Source of the DNA: Ectothiorhodospiraceae bacterium WFHF3C12
GTDB taxonomy: Bacteria; Pseudomonadota; Gammaproteobacteria; Nitrococcales; Nitrococcaceae
NCBI GenBank assembly: GCA_013519935.1
Contig: JACDUA010000009.1
Coordinates: 1 to 64,000 of the forward strand
Direction of reading: 5' to 3'
DNA length: 64,000 nucleotides
Every line of letters starts with the position of its first letter. Within the stretch, counting starts at the first letter, position 1. Made by a program: the position numbers and the translations under genes. This document shows, piece by piece, positions 53,999 to 64,000 of this stretch. Under the pieces are notes generated by a model. The model worked only from the letters and a program-made list of their open reading frames with translations. It did no database searches and had not been told where the DNA came from.

Positions 53999-54721
53999 AT
54001 GAAGGCGGAGTATGATCTCAGTCTCGCCTCCGCGGCGGAGGAGGTGCGGCGCTGCGCCGAATTCTATCTGCTATGGGTGGCTTCGGCCGACGGCCCCGCC
54101 AACGATACACAGGTGGGTCTGGTCGCGCGGATCATGGCGGAGGAGGGCGAGGCCTCGGAGTCCTTGAAAGAGCTGGCCGCGATCGCCGAGGAGCGGGAGT
54201 TCGACAGCCTGCTGTTTGCCGCGCGGACCCTGAGGGACCGGCTCACCGACGAGGAGCAGCAGTCGCTGCTGGGGTTGGCCATGCAGGTGGGATGGCAGGC
54301 AGGGCAGCTCGGGCCCGGCGCCAACCATATCTGCCGTTTCCTGGCGGATCTGTTCGACATATCTCCGGTGGCGACCGACCAGCTTCACCGGGATCTGTTC
54401 GACCAGCCGCTGTACAAGCCCGCCGATGTGAGCGATCCGCACTGGTGGTTCACGGACAGTCCGCATGCTGCGGATTACATAGATGAGCGTCGCCAGGCAT
54501 TACTGGATGGGGCAGATCCGCTGACACGTGAAGAGGCTCTTCTGATTCTTGAACTCAACCACGGTGCCGGCGAAGAGGCCGTACGTCAGGCATATCGCCG
54601 CCTCGCTCAAGCTTATCATCCCGACCGAGTGGACGCTGCTACGCGCGGCGGGGTGTCCCGGGACAAAGCTCATGCTCGATTTTTGAGGGTGCGCGAGGCC
54701 TACGAGGTGCTGACGACATGA
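53999..54721 (+). CDS. TerB-like/DnaJ-domain protein
   Basis: 240 residues. The N-terminal two-thirds (about 1-150) is acidic and helical, with VRRCAEFYLLWVASADGPANDTQ, a TerB-like opening. The C-terminal J-domain (about 180-240) has EEAVRQAYRRLAQAYHPDRVD with an intact HPD, so it should stimulate an Hsp70. The arrangement resembles DjlA but without a membrane helix. SD AGGAAC 8 bases before ATG 53999. The last four bases overlap the next gene (ATGA). Codon use grows less GC-rich towards the 3' end, as in the next gene. Confidence 0.8.
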   Translation: MKAEYDLSLASAAEEVRRCAEFYLLWVASADGPANDTQVGLVARIMAEEGEASESLKELAAIAEEREFDSLLFAARTLRDRLTDEEQQSLLGLAMQVGWQAGQLGPGANHICRFLADLFDISPVATDQLHRDLFDQPLYKPADVSDPHWWFTDSPHAADYIDERRQALLDGADPLTREEALLILELNHGAGEEAVRQAYRRLAQAYHPDRVDAATRGGVSRDKAHARFLRVREAYEVLTT

Positions 54722-55788
54722 GAGACTTGTACCGGCGCAATGGCATTGAGCCGTACGAGTCCGACCGCGTAGTTCTGGAACGTCGGCTGACTGGTGCCAC
54801 GGAGGACGTAGAGCGGGGGCGGCAGATCCTGCTGCACCCCCATCGCAGGGCCCTCTATGATCGCTATCACGCGGATCTGAGCCGGCTGGGGCAACTTCGG
54901 CAGTCATTGCGGTTGGAGAATGGGCCCTTTTGCCGGGAAGACGAACTGGGGGATTTCCACGTCCGCCCGCAGGTTCACCATGAAGACTTTTTTGCAAGGG
55001 GGCCGTTCAGGGAACAGCAGGCGGAAGGCGACAGCGGGGATCAGCGTTTCAGTCGGGTTCGTCGCTGGAGCGCTCGTGCCGCGATCCTGGCGGCACTAGC
55101 CCTGGTGATCTCCTCTGAGATGGGGGTTGATGTCCCCTGGCTGACCGAAGGAAGTGGCCCGACTCAGGCCCAGAGCGACATGGCTGCTTTCGAGGCAAAC
55201 GGAAACCGAAGGTTCGCAGTAGCCGACATGATCAATATCCACGACCGGCCCGATTCTGATAGTCCCATAATCGGCCAGCTGGACCGTCACGATATCGTTC
55301 ATATCGATGAGGGCAGGGGCACATGGGTTCGGTTGCTTAACCGCGGTCAGAATGGCTATGTGGACAGACGGTTTCTGGCGTCGAGAGCCGACTGCGAAGA
55401 GCAGGGTATAACGCGGCCGAAGAATGAAGCGGTGTTGGGTGCCGGAGTCAAAGGAAACAACCGGCTTCGGGTCCGCAACGACTCGTCCCGGGATGCGGTG
55501 GTGAAGGTCTCGAACCCGCTGGGTGCCGAGGTGGTCACATTGTTCGTCCGTGCCCGCAGCACGGCGGATTACGACAAGCTCCCGGGCGGCGCCTACCGAT
55601 TCCGGTATGCCACCGGCGAGGATTTCAGCCCCTATTGCGGGGTGTTCCTGCGGGATATGGTCGCCAGCATGGCGGATGCACCGTTGCGGTTGCCCGACGG
55701 TGGCAAGGGGCAGCTCGTGACCTATACGATCCAGGGCGCGGCCCATGGGAACTTCGCCGGCGGCCGCATTCTCCTGGACGCATTCTAG
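54718..55788 (+). CDS. Membrane protein with J-like N-terminus and SH3b domain
   Basis: 356 residues. Residues 1-60 look like the tail of a J domain (ILLHPHRRALYDRYHADLSR), but there is no HPD, so it is probably non-catalytic. A single membrane helix follows (about 120-138). The outer part has a bacterial SH3 domain (about 165-222, VADMINIHDRPDSDSPIIGQL to GYVDRRFL) and a C-terminal beta-rich domain (about 235-356) that I do not recognise. DNA is visibly more A+T-rich than the flanks. Coupled to the TerB/J gene by ATGA overlap. I infer a membrane-anchored partner with its SH3 domain in the periplasm. Confidence 0.65.
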   Translation: MRDLYRRNGIEPYESDRVVLERRLTGATEDVERGRQILLHPHRRALYDRYHADLSRLGQLRQSLRLENGPFCREDELGDFHVRPQVHHEDFFARGPFREQQAEGDSGDQRFSRVRRWSARAAILAALALVISSEMGVDVPWLTEGSGPTQAQSDMAAFEANGNRRFAVADMINIHDRPDSDSPIIGQLDRHDIVHIDEGRGTWVRLLNRGQNGYVDRRFLASRADCEEQGITRPKNEAVLGAGVKGNNRLRVRNDSSRDAVVKVSNPLGAEVVTLFVRARSTADYDKLPGGAYRFRYATGEDFSPYCGVFLRDMVASMADAPLRLPDGGKGQLVTYTIQGAAHGNFAGGRILLDAF

Positions 55789-59976: not shown

Positions 59977-61101
59977 CTACCAGGTGAAGTCCAACTGCTC
60001 CGCCTCGTCGCCCGCCTCATGCAGGGCCGACGCGGTCACGCCGAGCAGTCGCACAGGAATTTGTCCGGCATCGGTGCGCGCAAGCAGCGTCTCCAGGGTC
60101 TGCATGATGGCGTCGAGATCGAGCCGCTGCCGCGGTGCCGTGTGCGAGCGGGTCACCAGCCGGAAGTCGTTGTACTTCACCTTGAGTGTCCAGGTTTCCG
60201 CGCTCAACCCGCGCCGGCGCAGGTTGTCCAGAACCTCCTCCGCCAGCGGGCGCAGGGCCTGGAGCATTTCATCGGTGGCGGTCAGGTCCCGGGCGAAGGT
60301 GTTCTCGCTGCCGATGGACTTGCGCTCGCGGCGCGGCTGCACGGGCCGCTCGTCGACGCCGCGGGCAATGGCGTGAAAAAAGGGGCCGCGCTTGCCGAAG
60401 TGGGTCTGAAGTGCGGCCACGTCCCACCGCGCCAGGTCAGCACCGGTATAAATGCCCAGCTCGTGCATTCGCGCTTCCGTGGCGCGGCCTATGCCGTGGA
60501 ATCGGCCGACGGCCAGTGCGGCCACGAAATCGGGCCCCTCCTCGGGTGTTATCAGGTAGAGCCCGTCGGGCTTGTCCATGTCCGAGGCCTGCTTGGCCAG
60601 GAACTTGTTGTAGGAGACGCCGGCGGATGCAACGAGGCCGGTCTCCTCGCGGATGGCCGCTTTGATCGAGCGGGCAATCAGCGTAGCCGAGCCGTTGTGA
60701 CGCTCCGACCGAGTCACGTCCAGGTAGGCCTCATCCAGGGACAGCGGTTCCACGAGCTCGGTGTAGCCCCTGAATATAGCCTGGATGCGTCGGGACTCCC
60801 GCCGGTAGGCGTCGAATCGCGGGCGGATGAACACGGCATCCGGACACAGCCGCACCGCACGAGCCGCCGGCATGGCGGAGTGAATGCCATACCGGCGGGC
60901 CTCGTAGCTGGCAGCCGCGACCACGCCCCGGCCGGTGGGCGAGCCGCCGACCACGACCGGACGGCCCCTCAGCGCAGGCTCGTCGCGTTGCTCCACGGAC
61001 GCGTAGAAGGCGTCCATGTCGATGTGGATGATCTTGCGGGTCAACTCGGCTGGCGTGACTGGCGGCGTGTACGGGGATGATAGCGTAGGAGGGCGCGGCA
61101 T
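59977..61101 (-). CDS. dinB: DNA polymerase IV
   Basis: 374-residue Y-family translesion polymerase. The catalytic acidic residues are in IIHIDMDAFYASVEQR and EPLSLDEAYLD; the thumb (ASAGVSYNKFLAKQASDMDKPDG) and little finger (KSIGSENTFARDL) are clear. It starts 30 bases from the divergent fusion gene, so their promoters overlap. No LexA box is visible in or near the gap. The frame is open beyond 61101 only as overlap with the fusion gene. Confidence 0.92.
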   Translation of the reverse strand: MPRPPTLSSPYTPPVTPAELTRKIIHIDMDAFYASVEQRDEPALRGRPVVVGGSPTGRGVVAAASYEARRYGIHSAMPAARAVRLCPDAVFIRPRFDAYRRESRRIQAIFRGYTELVEPLSLDEAYLDVTRSERHNGSATLIARSIKAAIREETGLVASAGVSYNKFLAKQASDMDKPDGLYLITPEEGPDFVAALAVGRFHGIGRATEARMHELGIYTGADLARWDVAALQTHFGKRGPFFHAIARGVDERPVQPRRERKSIGSENTFARDLTATDEMLQALRPLAEEVLDNLRRRGLSAETWTLKVKYNDFRLVTRSHTAPRQRLDLDAIMQTLETLLARTDAGQIPVRLLGVTASALHEAGDEAEQLDFTW

Positions 61102-61131
61102 TGCCCGTGGCCGGATTGTATGCTCGGGGGC

Positions 61132-63048
61132 ATGGAAGCGATCTTCGACGAACGTTTCGACGACCCGGATTCTGCCGTAGCGGCGCTGGCAGCGGCCGCT
61201 CAGGTCCCGCGGCGGGTGCTGATTGCCGGTCCCATGGGAGCCGGCAAGTCGACACTGGCCGGCACAGCGGCGGATGTGCTGGTGGAGCGCGGTCATGGCG
61301 TGTGCTGTCTCGGTGCCGATCCCGGGACGCCGGCTTTCGGCCCGCCCGGCGCCGTTTCCCTGGCCGCTCGCACGACGGGCGGTTGGTCGGTCGAAGCGTC
61401 GCGCCCGCTGTGCACGCTGGACGCGGCCCGCTTCCGGCTTCCTCTGATGGACGCGGTCAGAGCGCTGGCGGCAGGGGTGGACACGGCGTGTCTGCTGGTC
61501 GATGCGCCCGGTGTGGTGCGCGGCGTCGCCGGTGCCGAGCTGCTCGTCAGTCTGGCCGGGGTGCTCCGCCCGGACCTGCTGGTCTGGCTCGCGCCGCGGC
61601 CGCTGGATCTCGGCGGTCTACGTGAGGAGATCGCGGCCCTGCAGACCCGGCGCTGGGCGGTGACCGCTTCGGCTGCCGCGGCTCGACCGGCGCGCTCGGA
61701 ACGCGACCGCAGCCGCACCGCTCGGTGGAATGGCTACGTCGATGAACTCCCGCGCCGTCGGATGGATCTGGACGGCGTCGCCGTTCTCGGCACGCCGCCG
61801 CCCCGTGACGCGCCCGACGTCTGGCGCGGTCGCATGATGGCCTGTCGGGACGATACAGGCCGGGACTGGCTGGGGGAGGTGACAGATGCCGACGCCGGAG
61901 CCATTGAGGTGGCTCTGCCCGGCGAGGCGGGCGAGCCGCTCGCCGTGACGATCCGCGATGCCGGTCGGGATGGTGACGGCTTGCTGGTCAGTCGCGCACC
62001 TGTGCGCGAGGCCTCGATGACCGGCACCGTCGAGTCCGCGCCCCAGGGGCCGGGCGCCGAGGTGGGGCAGGCCTCGGTGTCGCTGGTCAACGGCATCTTC
62101 GGCGATCCGCTCATGCACCTGCGGCTGCGGCACCGTCGCCGCAGCCTGCTGTTCGACCTGGGCGAGTGCAACTGTCTGCCGACGCGCGTTCTGCACCAGG
62201 TCTCGGATGTCTTCATCAGCCATGCCCACGCGGACCACATCGGCGGCTTCATCGCGTTTCTCCGCGCGCGCATTGGCTTTGGCGGCCCGTGCCGGATCTA
62301 CGGTCCACCGGGGATGGCCTGGAACATCGAAGGGTTGGTGCGGGGCATCCACTGGGACCGCATCGGTGAGGCGGCCCCCGAGTTCCCGGTTACTGAGGTG
62401 TACGCTTCCCACCTGAAGCGTTTCCGCGTCCGTGCGGGCCGGCCGGGACCGGAACCGCTGGACACGATGCCGGCAGGGGACGGTACCGTACTGGGGGAGG
62501 ACGATTTCAGGGTGCGCGCGGTAACGCTGGACCACGGCACGCCGGTTCTGGCGTTCGCCTTCGAGCCCCGGGGGCAGGCCAATGTGCGCAAGGAATGCCT
62601 CGCGGCGATGGCGCTTCGGCCAGGGCCCTGGCTCACGCAGCTCAAAAGGGCCTGGATGGCCGGACGGCATGACGAATCCATAACCCTGCCGGACGGTGAG
62701 GTGCGAACGGTCCGGGCGCTGGCCGCGGAACTGCTGGTGGCATCGCCGGGCCGCCCGGTGGTGTACGCCACCGATTTCGCCGACACGCCGGCTAACCGCG
62801 ACGCCCTGACGGCACTGGCCCGGGGCGCCCACACCCTGGTCTGTGAGAGCCCGTTCCTGGCACGGGATGGCGAGCAGGCGCGATACACTGGGCACCTGAC
62901 CGCAAGGGCCTGTGGTGAAATTGCCGCGGCGGCGGGCGTGAAACAGCTCCTGCCGTTCCATTTCTCGCCGCGCTACGAGGCGGATCCGGATGCCGTCTAC
63001 GCCGAGGTGGCGCGGGCCTGCCCCGGGAGCATCACCGTACGCCGCTGA
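61132..63048 (+). CDS. Fusion of a Clp1/Grc3-type polynucleotide kinase and an RNase Z-type nuclease
   Basis: 638 residues. The N-terminal half is a Clp1/Grc3-like P-loop kinase: Walker A GPMGAGKST (33-41), then CCLGADPGTPAFGPPGAVSL, the Asp-Pro-Gly/PPG pattern of Grc3/NOL9-type 5' RNA kinases, and an Asp in LLVDAPGVVRG. The C-terminal half (about 310-638) is an RNase Z-like metallo-beta-lactamase: SHAHADHIGGF (His364, His366, Asp368, His369), LDHGTPVLAF (His468), YATDFADTP (Asp548) and PFHFSPRY (His610). Both active sites look complete. ATG at 61132 has GGGGG just upstream; ATG at 61120 is possible. Role inferred: joined RNA 3' processing and 5' phosphorylation. Confidence 0.85.
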   Translation: MEAIFDERFDDPDSAVAALAAAAQVPRRVLIAGPMGAGKSTLAGTAADVLVERGHGVCCLGADPGTPAFGPPGAVSLAARTTGGWSVEASRPLCTLDAARFRLPLMDAVRALAAGVDTACLLVDAPGVVRGVAGAELLVSLAGVLRPDLLVWLAPRPLDLGGLREEIAALQTRRWAVTASAAAARPARSERDRSRTARWNGYVDELPRRRMDLDGVAVLGTPPPRDAPDVWRGRMMACRDDTGRDWLGEVTDADAGAIEVALPGEAGEPLAVTIRDAGRDGDGLLVSRAPVREASMTGTVESAPQGPGAEVGQASVSLVNGIFGDPLMHLRLRHRRRSLLFDLGECNCLPTRVLHQVSDVFISHAHADHIGGFIAFLRARIGFGGPCRIYGPPGMAWNIEGLVRGIHWDRIGEAAPEFPVTEVYASHLKRFRVRAGRPGPEPLDTMPAGDGTVLGEDDFRVRAVTLDHGTPVLAFAFEPRGQANVRKECLAAMALRPGPWLTQLKRAWMAGRHDESITLPDGEVRTVRALAAELLVASPGRPVVYATDFADTPANRDALTALARGAHTLVCESPFLARDGEQARYTGHLTARACGEIAAAAGVKQLLPFHFSPRYEADPDAVYAEVARACPGSITVRR

Positions 63049-63062
63049 CTGAAGGGGGGAGC

Positions 63063-64000
63063 ATGACGGAACTAGGCGAGCAGACGCTCGCGAAAATGCT
63101 GGACGGGTTGCCGCCCGAGGGGCTGGCGTTGATCGACGGGGGGTCCCGCTGGGCCTACGCCGACCTGGCCGCGGCCAGTCGGCGGGTAGCATGCGGACTG
63201 GTTGAAGCCGGCGTCGAAGCGGGGGATCGGGTGGCCATCTGGTTGCCGAATATCCCCGAATGGCTGGTGGTGTACTTCGCCTGCGCCCGGGTCGGAGCGG
63301 TGGCGGTGGCGCTGAACACGCGATTCCGCAGCGCTGAGGTGGAGGACATCGTCGGTCGCTCGGGCTGTCGCGTGCTCGTCCTCTGGCCCGGATTCAAGGA
63401 CATCGATTTCTCCGGAATTCTCGCGGGCGTCGATGCCGACGCCCTGAAGAGCGTCGAGCGCGTCATCGTATGCCGGCAGGATGCGGACGCGCCGTCGCCG
63501 CTGCCGGGCCGGCCCGTCCACCACTACGGCACACTGGACGCTGCCCCGCCCCTGCAAAGCGAGCGCGGCGGTCCGGACAGCCCTTGCACCATCTTCACGA
63601 CCTCGGGGACCACCTCGGCGCCGAAGTTCGTCTTGCACAAGCAGTCGGTCATCGTCCACCACGCACGGGAAGTGGTCCGCGGCCACGGCTACGATCGCCC
63701 GGACGCGGTGCTGCTCCAGATCCTGCCGTTCTGCGGCGCCTTCGGCCACGCCCAGGCCATGGCCGCGCTGGCCGGGGCTCGCCCGCTTGTGCTGCAGACG
63801 GTGTTCAATGCCGCCGAGGCCATGGAACTGGGGCGAAGCCATCGCGTAACCCACTTCAACTGCAGCGACGAAATGATCGCCCGCATGCTGGACGCCGACG
63901 ACACGCCCCGGCCACTGCCGGACATCCATTTCGTCGGTTGCGCGCGCTTCGGCGGGATATCCGGCCTGGGTGCCCGTGCCGAGGAACGCGGCGTACCGCT
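63063..64000 (+). CDS. AMP-forming CoA ligase, N-terminal part (runs off the window)
   Basis: At least 312 codons before the window ends, with no stop. ATG 63063 has GGGGGAG upstream and lies 14 bases after the fusion gene, so both may be co-transcribed. The ANL-family A3 motif FTTSGTTSAPKFVLHKQS and the usual N-terminal helix VAIWLPNIPEWLVVYFACARVG are clear. It would activate a carboxylic acid; the substrate cannot be told from this half. Confidence 0.85.
   Translation, partial: MTELGEQTLAKMLDGLPPEGLALIDGGSRWAYADLAAASRRVACGLVEAGVEAGDRVAIWLPNIPEWLVVYFACARVGAVAVALNTRFRSAEVEDIVGRSGCRVLVLWPGFKDIDFSGILAGVDADALKSVERVIVCRQDADAPSPLPGRPVHHYGTLDAAPPLQSERGGPDSPCTIFTTSGTTSAPKFVLHKQSVIVHHAREVVRGHGYDRPDAVLLQILPFCGAFGHAQAMAALAGARPLVLQTVFNAAEAMELGRSHRVTHFNCSDEMIARMLDADDTPRPLPDIHFVGCARFGGISGLGARAEERGVP

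Follow-up and report, generated by a model that had tools for sequence, protein, structure and literature searches.

Introduction

What would a bacterium do with a single protein that joins an RNA 5′-end kinase to a nuclease of the kind that trims tRNA 3′ ends? The question is raised by a gene at positions 61132..63048 (+) of a 64,000-nucleotide stretch of DNA from Ectothiorhodospiraceae bacterium WFHF3C12 (contig JACDUA010000009.1, positions 1 to 64,000), a gammaproteobacterium; this whole stretch is referred to here as the window. An initial annotation, made from the letters alone, described the gene product as a Clp1/Grc3-like polynucleotide kinase fused to an RNase Z-like nuclease and supposed that it might ready RNA for ligation or belong to an RNA repair or defence route. 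In eukaryotes and archaea, the same tRNAs are handled by both Clp1 kinases and RNase Z. Our analysis confirms the observation itself and partly supports its interpretation. Sequence profiles, structure comparison and 33 of 34 related loci agree on a kinase and a nuclease in one frame, and the gene is statistically associated with the RNA ligase RtcB. These findings point to an enzyme, as yet undescribed, that deals with broken RNA, and we give a probability of roughly one half to the reading that it is a bifunctional RNA end-processing enzyme that belongs to an Rtc-type RNA-repair pathway (RtcB/archease/RtcA) or works next to it.

The initial annotation knew of no bacterial protein with both domains, and literature searches limited to open-licence papers likewise returned no paper describing one. 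Bacterial Clp1 is given a length of 333 ± 74 amino acids (Saito 2019, PMC6777427) and is called essentially simple in domain structure (a 2023 paper, PMC10598085), and the main text of the former makes no mention of RNase Z, lactamase, fused or fusion.

Results

Two domains in one reading frame

The fusion gene comprises 638 codons plus stop, with an alternative start at 61120; no internal stop interrupts the frame from either start to 63048, and both domains are in-frame. Relatives were gathered by a scan of genome contigs together with whole-genome searches, and removal of recognisable duplicate loci left 34. In 33 of these, a single frame holds kinase and nuclease in the order seen in the window, and in the remaining locus (L016) the two halves sit in different frames. 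Because this single-frame order recurs so consistently, we reject a frameshift or assembly artefact, and with it the possibility, foreseen by the initial annotation, of two separate genes merged by sequencing error. The 17 other proteins of an 18-row alignment are 45-51% identical to that of the window. An AlphaFold2 model built from this alignment has a mean predicted local distance difference test (pLDDT) score of 85.6 and a predicted template modelling (pTM) score of 0.75, with a flexible linker at residues 293-304 (62008..62043, +), where pLDDT lies below 50.

Conservation of residues was counted over readable rows, 32 for the kinase (33 for its lid arginines) and 33 for the nuclease. The catalytic residues are invariant in 32/32 and 33/33 rows, respectively, in keeping with the earlier view that both active sites are intact, and both sites look, from the alignment, to be under strong constraint.

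The kinase half is Clp1-like

A Clp1/Grc3-like kinase core and C-terminal domain occupies residues 8-283 (61153..61980, +), as seen with the Pfam profile CLP1_P and by structure comparison. The profile matches residues 33-202 with 51.4 bits (1.5e-13; cut-off 26.6; profile positions 1-185 of 188) and is the only Pfam family to pass its cut-off at the N-terminus, where the initial annotation had allowed for a non-kinase P-loop family. Other P-loop families were rejected, as their Pfam matches sit on the Walker A region below the respective cut-offs whereas CLP1_P spans the domain; matches to MeaB, ArsA and midasin outside Pfam were also short and were likewise rejected. The nearest solved folds are Clp1 and Grc3. 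Human Clp1 (8hmy_E) aligns with residues 8-280 at VIA Z 25.6 (263 residues aligned, root-mean-square deviation (rmsd) 3.0) and Caenorhabditis elegans Clp1 (4ohw) with the kinase part at VIA Z 25.2 (264 residues, rmsd 3.0). Since the Clp1 structures align over residues 8-283, the kinase part spans the Clp1 C-terminal domain as well. The fusion is the sole CLP1 match in its own genome.

PMC6777427 provides definitions of four Clp1 motifs: Walker A, Walker B ([DE]hhQ), clasp ([TSL]xGW) and lid (RxxxxR). Walker A of the fusion, GPMGAGKST (residues 33-41; 61228..61254, +), lies where the initial annotation had placed it, follows the pattern GxxxxGK[ST] in 32/32 fused kinases and has G33, G36, G38 and K39 invariant in all of them. 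The presumed general-base/Walker B region (residues 63-73; 61318..61350, +), which aligns with a DADVGQ-type stretch in standalone CLP1, keeps D63, G65, P67, P72 and G73 in 32/32 rows, but departs from the Walker B definition: the aspartate is present in 32/32 and the glutamine in 1/32, its position being mostly taken by Ser, Thr or Asn. Where Clp1 has its clasp (TxGW), the fusion has DxPGVxRG (residues 124-131; 61501..61524, +), with D124, P126, G127, R130 and G131 in 32/32 rows; residue 128 is V, L or A, and the tryptophan of the clasp definition is found in 0/32. That tryptophan is likewise missing from 4/4 standalone gammaproteobacterial CLP1 proteins, which do keep the Walker B glutamine. 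The motif RFR (residues 100-102; 61429..61437, +) has R100 and R102 invariant in 32/32 fused kinases, and the same position differs in all four standalone proteins. As for the lid, the arginines R185, R191 and R195 (61684..61716, +) resemble it, R191 and R195 being present in 33/33 rows with a spacing of RxxxR, and R185 in 28/33. Because two of the four published definitions do not hold, we use the name Clp1-like for the kinase and do not count it among the established Clp1 kinases. Its fit to the family is also modest, since a class-wide CLP1_P search (E 1e-8, eight candidates scored per genome) recovered 6 of the 14 intact fusions and the other 8 did not appear; fused kinases score 44-58 bits, whereas the four standalone proteins reach 105-112.

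An alternative is that the P-loop half is not an RNA kinase at all, but gates the nuclease at the expense of ATP or phosphorylates some other acceptor. With the clasp tryptophan missing in 32/32 and the Walker B glutamine in 31/32, the phospho-acceptor may indeed not be RNA, and the distinctive RFR stretch, the low profile scores and the incomplete recovery argue in the same direction. Nevertheless, Walker A, D63, D124 and the lid arginines R191 and R195 are invariant, the fold match covers both the Clp1 core and its C-terminal domain, and the four standalone bacterial CLP1 proteins lack the clasp tryptophan too. We consider this alternative quite improbable, and polynucleotide kinase activity is predicted for the fusion.

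The nuclease half is RNase Z-like

Residues 314-637 (62071..63042, +) form an RNase Z-like metallo-beta-lactamase domain, as judged by a PRK02126 match and structure comparison. Pfam Lactamase_B_2 scores 47.5 on this half (cut-off 27), and the best NCBIfam match is PRK02126 'ribonuclease Z' (NF002558) on residues 316-632 (1.3e-81). As the scores fall short of both curated RNase Z cut-offs (274.3 of 315 bits for NF002558; 106.1 of 292.95 bits for the TIGR02651 equivalog), the half is named RNase Z-like. The Bacillus subtilis RNase Z/pre-tRNA structure 4gcw_A aligns with residues 314-636 at VIA Z 27.2 (280 residues, rmsd 3.4).

The HxHxDH motif (residues 364-369; 62221..62238, +), the metal-bridging candidate Asp548 (62773..62775, +) and the closing metal ligand His610 (62959..62961, +), all located as in the initial annotation, are conserved in 33/33 rows, as is a further metal-ligand candidate, His468 (62533..62535, +). 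All seven presumed metal ligands (residues 364, 366, 368, 369, 468, 548 and 610) are thus invariant. So is HLT (residues 588-590; 62893..62901, +; 33/33), which we take to be the counterpart of the RNase Z motif called HST. The counterpart of the RNase Z flexible arm (62569..62751, +) aligns with the corresponding segment of the B. subtilis enzyme and carries PGPW..K at residues 497-505, with G498, W500 and K505 in 33/33 rows and P499 in 32/33; in RNase Z this stretch is the tRNA exosite.

Conservation of the arm and metal ligands, together with the lack of any second strong RNase Z match in this genome (rated 100% complete; 108 bits for the fusion, 30 for the next hit), raises the possibility that it is simply the genome's tRNase Z, a housekeeping tRNA 3′ maturase that happens to bear a kinase. 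A canonical RNase Z match (at least 225 bits) is found in 0/14 intact class-level fusion genomes, which agrees with this, but with about 0.4 expected the overlap is not significant and is uninformative. Canonical tRNase Z cuts ahead of CCA addition, and CCA is already encoded in 42/42 of the tRNA genes that ARAGORN calls in this genome (43 tRNA places with Rfam). Moreover, among 369 class genomes a canonical match of that strength occurs in only 11 and the fusion in 16 (two of them cut), far from universal for either. Because all called tRNA genes encode CCA and such proteins are rare in the class, the fusion is unlikely to serve as a housekeeping enzyme of tRNA 3′ maturation.

Beside tRNA-Arg(ccg) in the same genome, Rfam marks a weak tRNA-like place (G000:C13:55729-55800; 30.2 bits) that ARAGORN does not call, possibly a tRNA remnant. 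Two other proteins may join an RNase Z-like domain to something else. In a Haliea metagenome-assembled genome, a stretch that resembles an amino-acid permease by eye lies in-frame with a standalone RNase Z-like domain (L017:5571-7964, +), either a fusion or a read-through. On a Limimaricola plasmid, a 'GXWXG domain-containing' protein of about 550 amino acids starts with an RNase Z-like domain (L207:4025-5674, +) and may represent another fusion partner for this nuclease.

Distribution and history

A full-length fusion is present in 14 of the 369 sampled class genomes (13 families); two more (G341 and G364) hold a copy cut by a contig end, and outside the class the fusion occurs in two genomes that share a genus (G464 and G551). 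The relatives are scattered through the gammaproteobacteria, a patchy distribution that suggests horizontal transfer or many losses. Carriage as phage cargo was rejected, since the 54 stretches that a pattern scan picked out of viral contigs include no relative, as was carriage as plasmid cargo, since 27 plasmid records match but none across more than 80% of the query.

In a midpoint-drawn tree of the nuclease domain (77 rows), all fused proteins fall into one clade (support 95/95), so the fusion probably arose once and has been retained. Its neighbouring group consists of standalone PRK02126-type proteins, and canonical RNase Z is far away. Within the clade, Marinobacter together with Halieaceae, and the pair L024/L025, have the nuclease without the kinase and are not cut by a contig end; five further rows labelled 'alone' (L015, L026, L093, L094 and L016) are contig-cut or frame-split and were excluded as kinase losses. 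This history is most simply read as a single fusion event, after which the kinase was lost about twice. One genome (G224) has the two parts as separate genes, CLP1 lying 79 bases upstream of an RNase Z-like gene on the same strand; no further unfused pair was found in the other 30 genomes searched of its order, and no CLP1 near other standalone relatives in ten neighbourhoods (4.9-12 kb).

Association with RtcB, archease and RtcA

The initial annotation suggested looking for an RNA ligase gene that recurs nearby. Ligase co-occurrence was compared in 80 genomes, 24 with the fusion (including the contig-cut copies in G341 and G364 and a copy split over two contigs in G493) and 56 others, the latter hand-picked before the result was seen. 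RtcB is present in 21/24 fusion genomes and 19/56 others (p = 1.7e-5, one fragment being counted on each side). The difference holds without fragments (20/24 vs 18/56, p = 2.8e-5), among class-drawn genomes without near relatives (14/16 vs 15/42, p = 8e-4) and with one count per family (16/19 vs 18/47, p = 9e-4). It lies in the long form of RtcB (above 540 bits, a cut chosen after seeing the scores; 17/24 vs 12/56, p = 8e-5), the short form not being enriched (3/24 vs 5/56). The surroundings of RtcB were inspected in 12 of the 21 fusion genomes that have it, and archease adjoins the ligase in 11, including the genome of the window; Pfam confirmed the archease there and in L003. The ATP-dependent RNA_ligase family PF09414 is not clearly enriched genome-wide (9/24 vs 10/56, p = 0.08; class-drawn 3/16 vs 1/42, p = 0.06).

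The association is supported by physical linkage in some genomes. In L008, RtcA lies 59 bases past the fusion on the same strand, and in G098 it directly precedes the fusion. In L003, the ends of archease and RtcB lie upstream of the fusion at distances of about 3 and 0.9 kb (both genes within about 3.5 kb). These make 3/34 loci with rtc genes in 428 kb of flank, against 0.26 expected (P about 0.002) on the assumption of two rtc loci per 3.3 Mb in every genome. Excluded from this count is G105, in which RtcA-archease-RtcB lies about 9 kb from the fusion, just beyond the counted flank. Further, in G047 RtcA is separated by about 10 bases from an unfused relative downstream of it, and in G336 an RtcA-like stretch lies about 8 kb away.

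Surroundings of the gene

In the window, the fusion is preceded by a divergent gene for a Y-family DNA polymerase of DinB type (59980..61101, -; IMS 1.6e-50), whose start near 61101 is an estimate that leaves only some 20-30 bases between the two gene starts. An AMP-binding gene of acyl-CoA synthetase type (63063..64000, +; AMP-binding 1.2e-47) begins 14 bases past the fusion stop codon and runs off the window. A scan of 60900-63250 gave no sigma-70-like promoter. Elsewhere in the window, the product of the open reading frame (ORF) at 54718-55785 (+) has an N-terminus that, by eye, resembles a J-domain, but the only domain that Pfam reports is bacterial SH3 (PF08239).

Across the fusion loci, no conserved operon was seen among 30 neighbour ORFs scanned, and in five annotated plasmid relatives, of six looked at (the sixth being without annotation), no rtc gene lies within 4 kb, as far as their incomplete annotation goes. 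Nitroreductase genes stand next to the fusion at L003:7087-7950 (-) and L006:6975-7670 (+), and CheR methyltransferase genes at L005:6924-7739 (-) and L155:6780-7631 (+; G236); both may be chance in view of family size. In Nitrosomonas sp. Nm34, a Macro-domain gene (L010:6939-7475, -; PF01661, 5e-42) adjoins the fusion in the opposite direction, and L027:6913-7449 (-) is an ORF of the same length. Macro domains handle the ADP-ribose products of RNA 2′-phosphate removal. Just downstream of the fusion in G061 is a PIN-domain (VapC-like) gene (L176:6340-6753, -), possibly a tRNA-cutting toxin.

Discussion

How could a kinase and a nuclease on one chain serve RNA repair? The RNase Z-like half would grip tRNA or tRNA fragments via its arm and, to judge from fold, arm and metal ligands, trim 3′ extensions to a 3′-OH, and the Clp1-like half would phosphorylate 5′-OH RNA ends produced by ribotoxins or other metal-independent nucleases. 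Metallo-beta-lactamase nucleases leave 5′-phosphate (5′-P) and 3′-OH ends. The protein's own cut would thus not need the kinase, whose natural substrate would be a 5′-OH end made by something else. RtcB in turn joins 5′-OH ends, which the kinase would destroy, so the proposal that the fusion prepares ends for ligation is not supported for RtcB, and diversion is favoured over feeding. Most likely, the kinase diverts ends that RtcB has left: acting on fragments unsealed by RtcB, it may send them to trimming, decay or a 5′-P/3′-OH route. Of the repair or defence route that had been envisaged, repair gains from RtcA beside the fusion at two loci and from the enrichment of RtcB; defence does not, PADLOC giving no useful match for the fusion (best E 0.005, P-loop only).

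The same chemistry bears on a different proposal, that the fusion is a Las1-Grc3-like decay module in which the kinase phosphorylates 5′-OH RNA for 5′-P-dependent decay and takes no part in repair. Kinases of the Clp1 family work with nucleases in several known cases (TSEN, CPSF and Las1), and Clp1 and Grc3 are the nearest solved folds of this kinase; unlike Las1, however, a metallo-beta-lactamase leaves 5′-P, its own cuts having no need of a kinase, and the rtc linkage points to repair. A review reports that CLP1 competes with RTCB for 5′-OH ends in insect cells (PMC13247085), which would suit decay. We regard a pure decay module as unlikely.

Several findings weigh against a repair enzyme tied to Rtc, in addition to the missing clasp tryptophan and Walker B glutamine described above. 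The comparison genomes for RtcB were hand-picked, and related genomes are not independent. An RtcB match is missing in 3/24 fusion genomes (G388, G120 and G027, which are 75-95% complete in 260-500 contigs), and a fourth (G009) has an RtcB fragment only. In the window's own genome, RtcB-archease lies on another contig (C130), away from the fusion, which has dinB and the AMP-binding gene and no rtc gene as its neighbours; at 31/34 fusion loci, indeed, no rtc gene is found in the flank, several flanks being short. Nitroreductase and CheR each recur at two loci among the 30 neighbour ORFs scanned, equal to RtcA; rtcA is usually single-copy, and nitroreductase and CheR are large families. Finally, the kinase seems to have been lost about twice with the nuclease kept, so the nuclease can manage without it.

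Within the Rtc-linked reading, a more specific form is tentative and, at present, rather doubtful: the fusion would be an end-sorting enzyme paired with archease-type RtcB, phosphorylating 5′-OH fragments that RtcB failed to seal or should not seal, trimming tRNA 3′ ends, and so choosing between repair and disposal. If true, bacteria would have, in a single protein that also includes an RNase Z, a counterpart of the CLP1/RTCB competition proposed for animals. More generally, the fusion, if active, would alter the two ends of an RNA with one polypeptide chain, and could serve as a tool for RNA-end work. Its association with RtcB and archease would give bacterial RNA repair a 5′-end kinase branch, and poses in a simple organism the question, open in animals, of whether CLP1 helps or opposes RTCB.

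Comparison with known systems

With the Clp1/Grc3/Nol9 kinases (4ohw; Thermus scotoductus Clp1), the fusion shares the core and C-terminal fold, Walker A, the catalytic aspartate and lid-like arginines. It differs from them in lacking the clasp tryptophan and the eukaryotic N-terminal domain, in having the Walker B glutamine mostly replaced, in its specific RFR motif and in being joined to a nuclease. With RNase Z/RNase BN (B. subtilis 4gcw and 2fk6; Escherichia coli 2cbn) and PRK02126, it has in common HxHxDH, His468, Asp548 and His610, a flexible arm with a GP motif and the fold (Z 26-27); unlike RNase Z and PRK02126, it carries an N-terminal kinase and scores below both curated cut-offs. 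In its way of working, it recalls Las1-Grc3, T4 Pnkp and Trl1, in which a 5′ kinase is likewise coupled to a nuclease or a 3′-end activity. Las1 is a HEPN nuclease, Pnkp a phosphatase, and Trl1 includes a ligase; to our knowledge, none of the three uses the RNase Z fold. Compared with the members of RtcA-RtcB-archease systems, the fusion is neither ligase nor cyclase, and its kinase would consume the 5′-OH substrate of RtcB; yet it co-occurs with RtcB in 21/24 genomes and lies near RtcA or RtcB-archease in a few loci.

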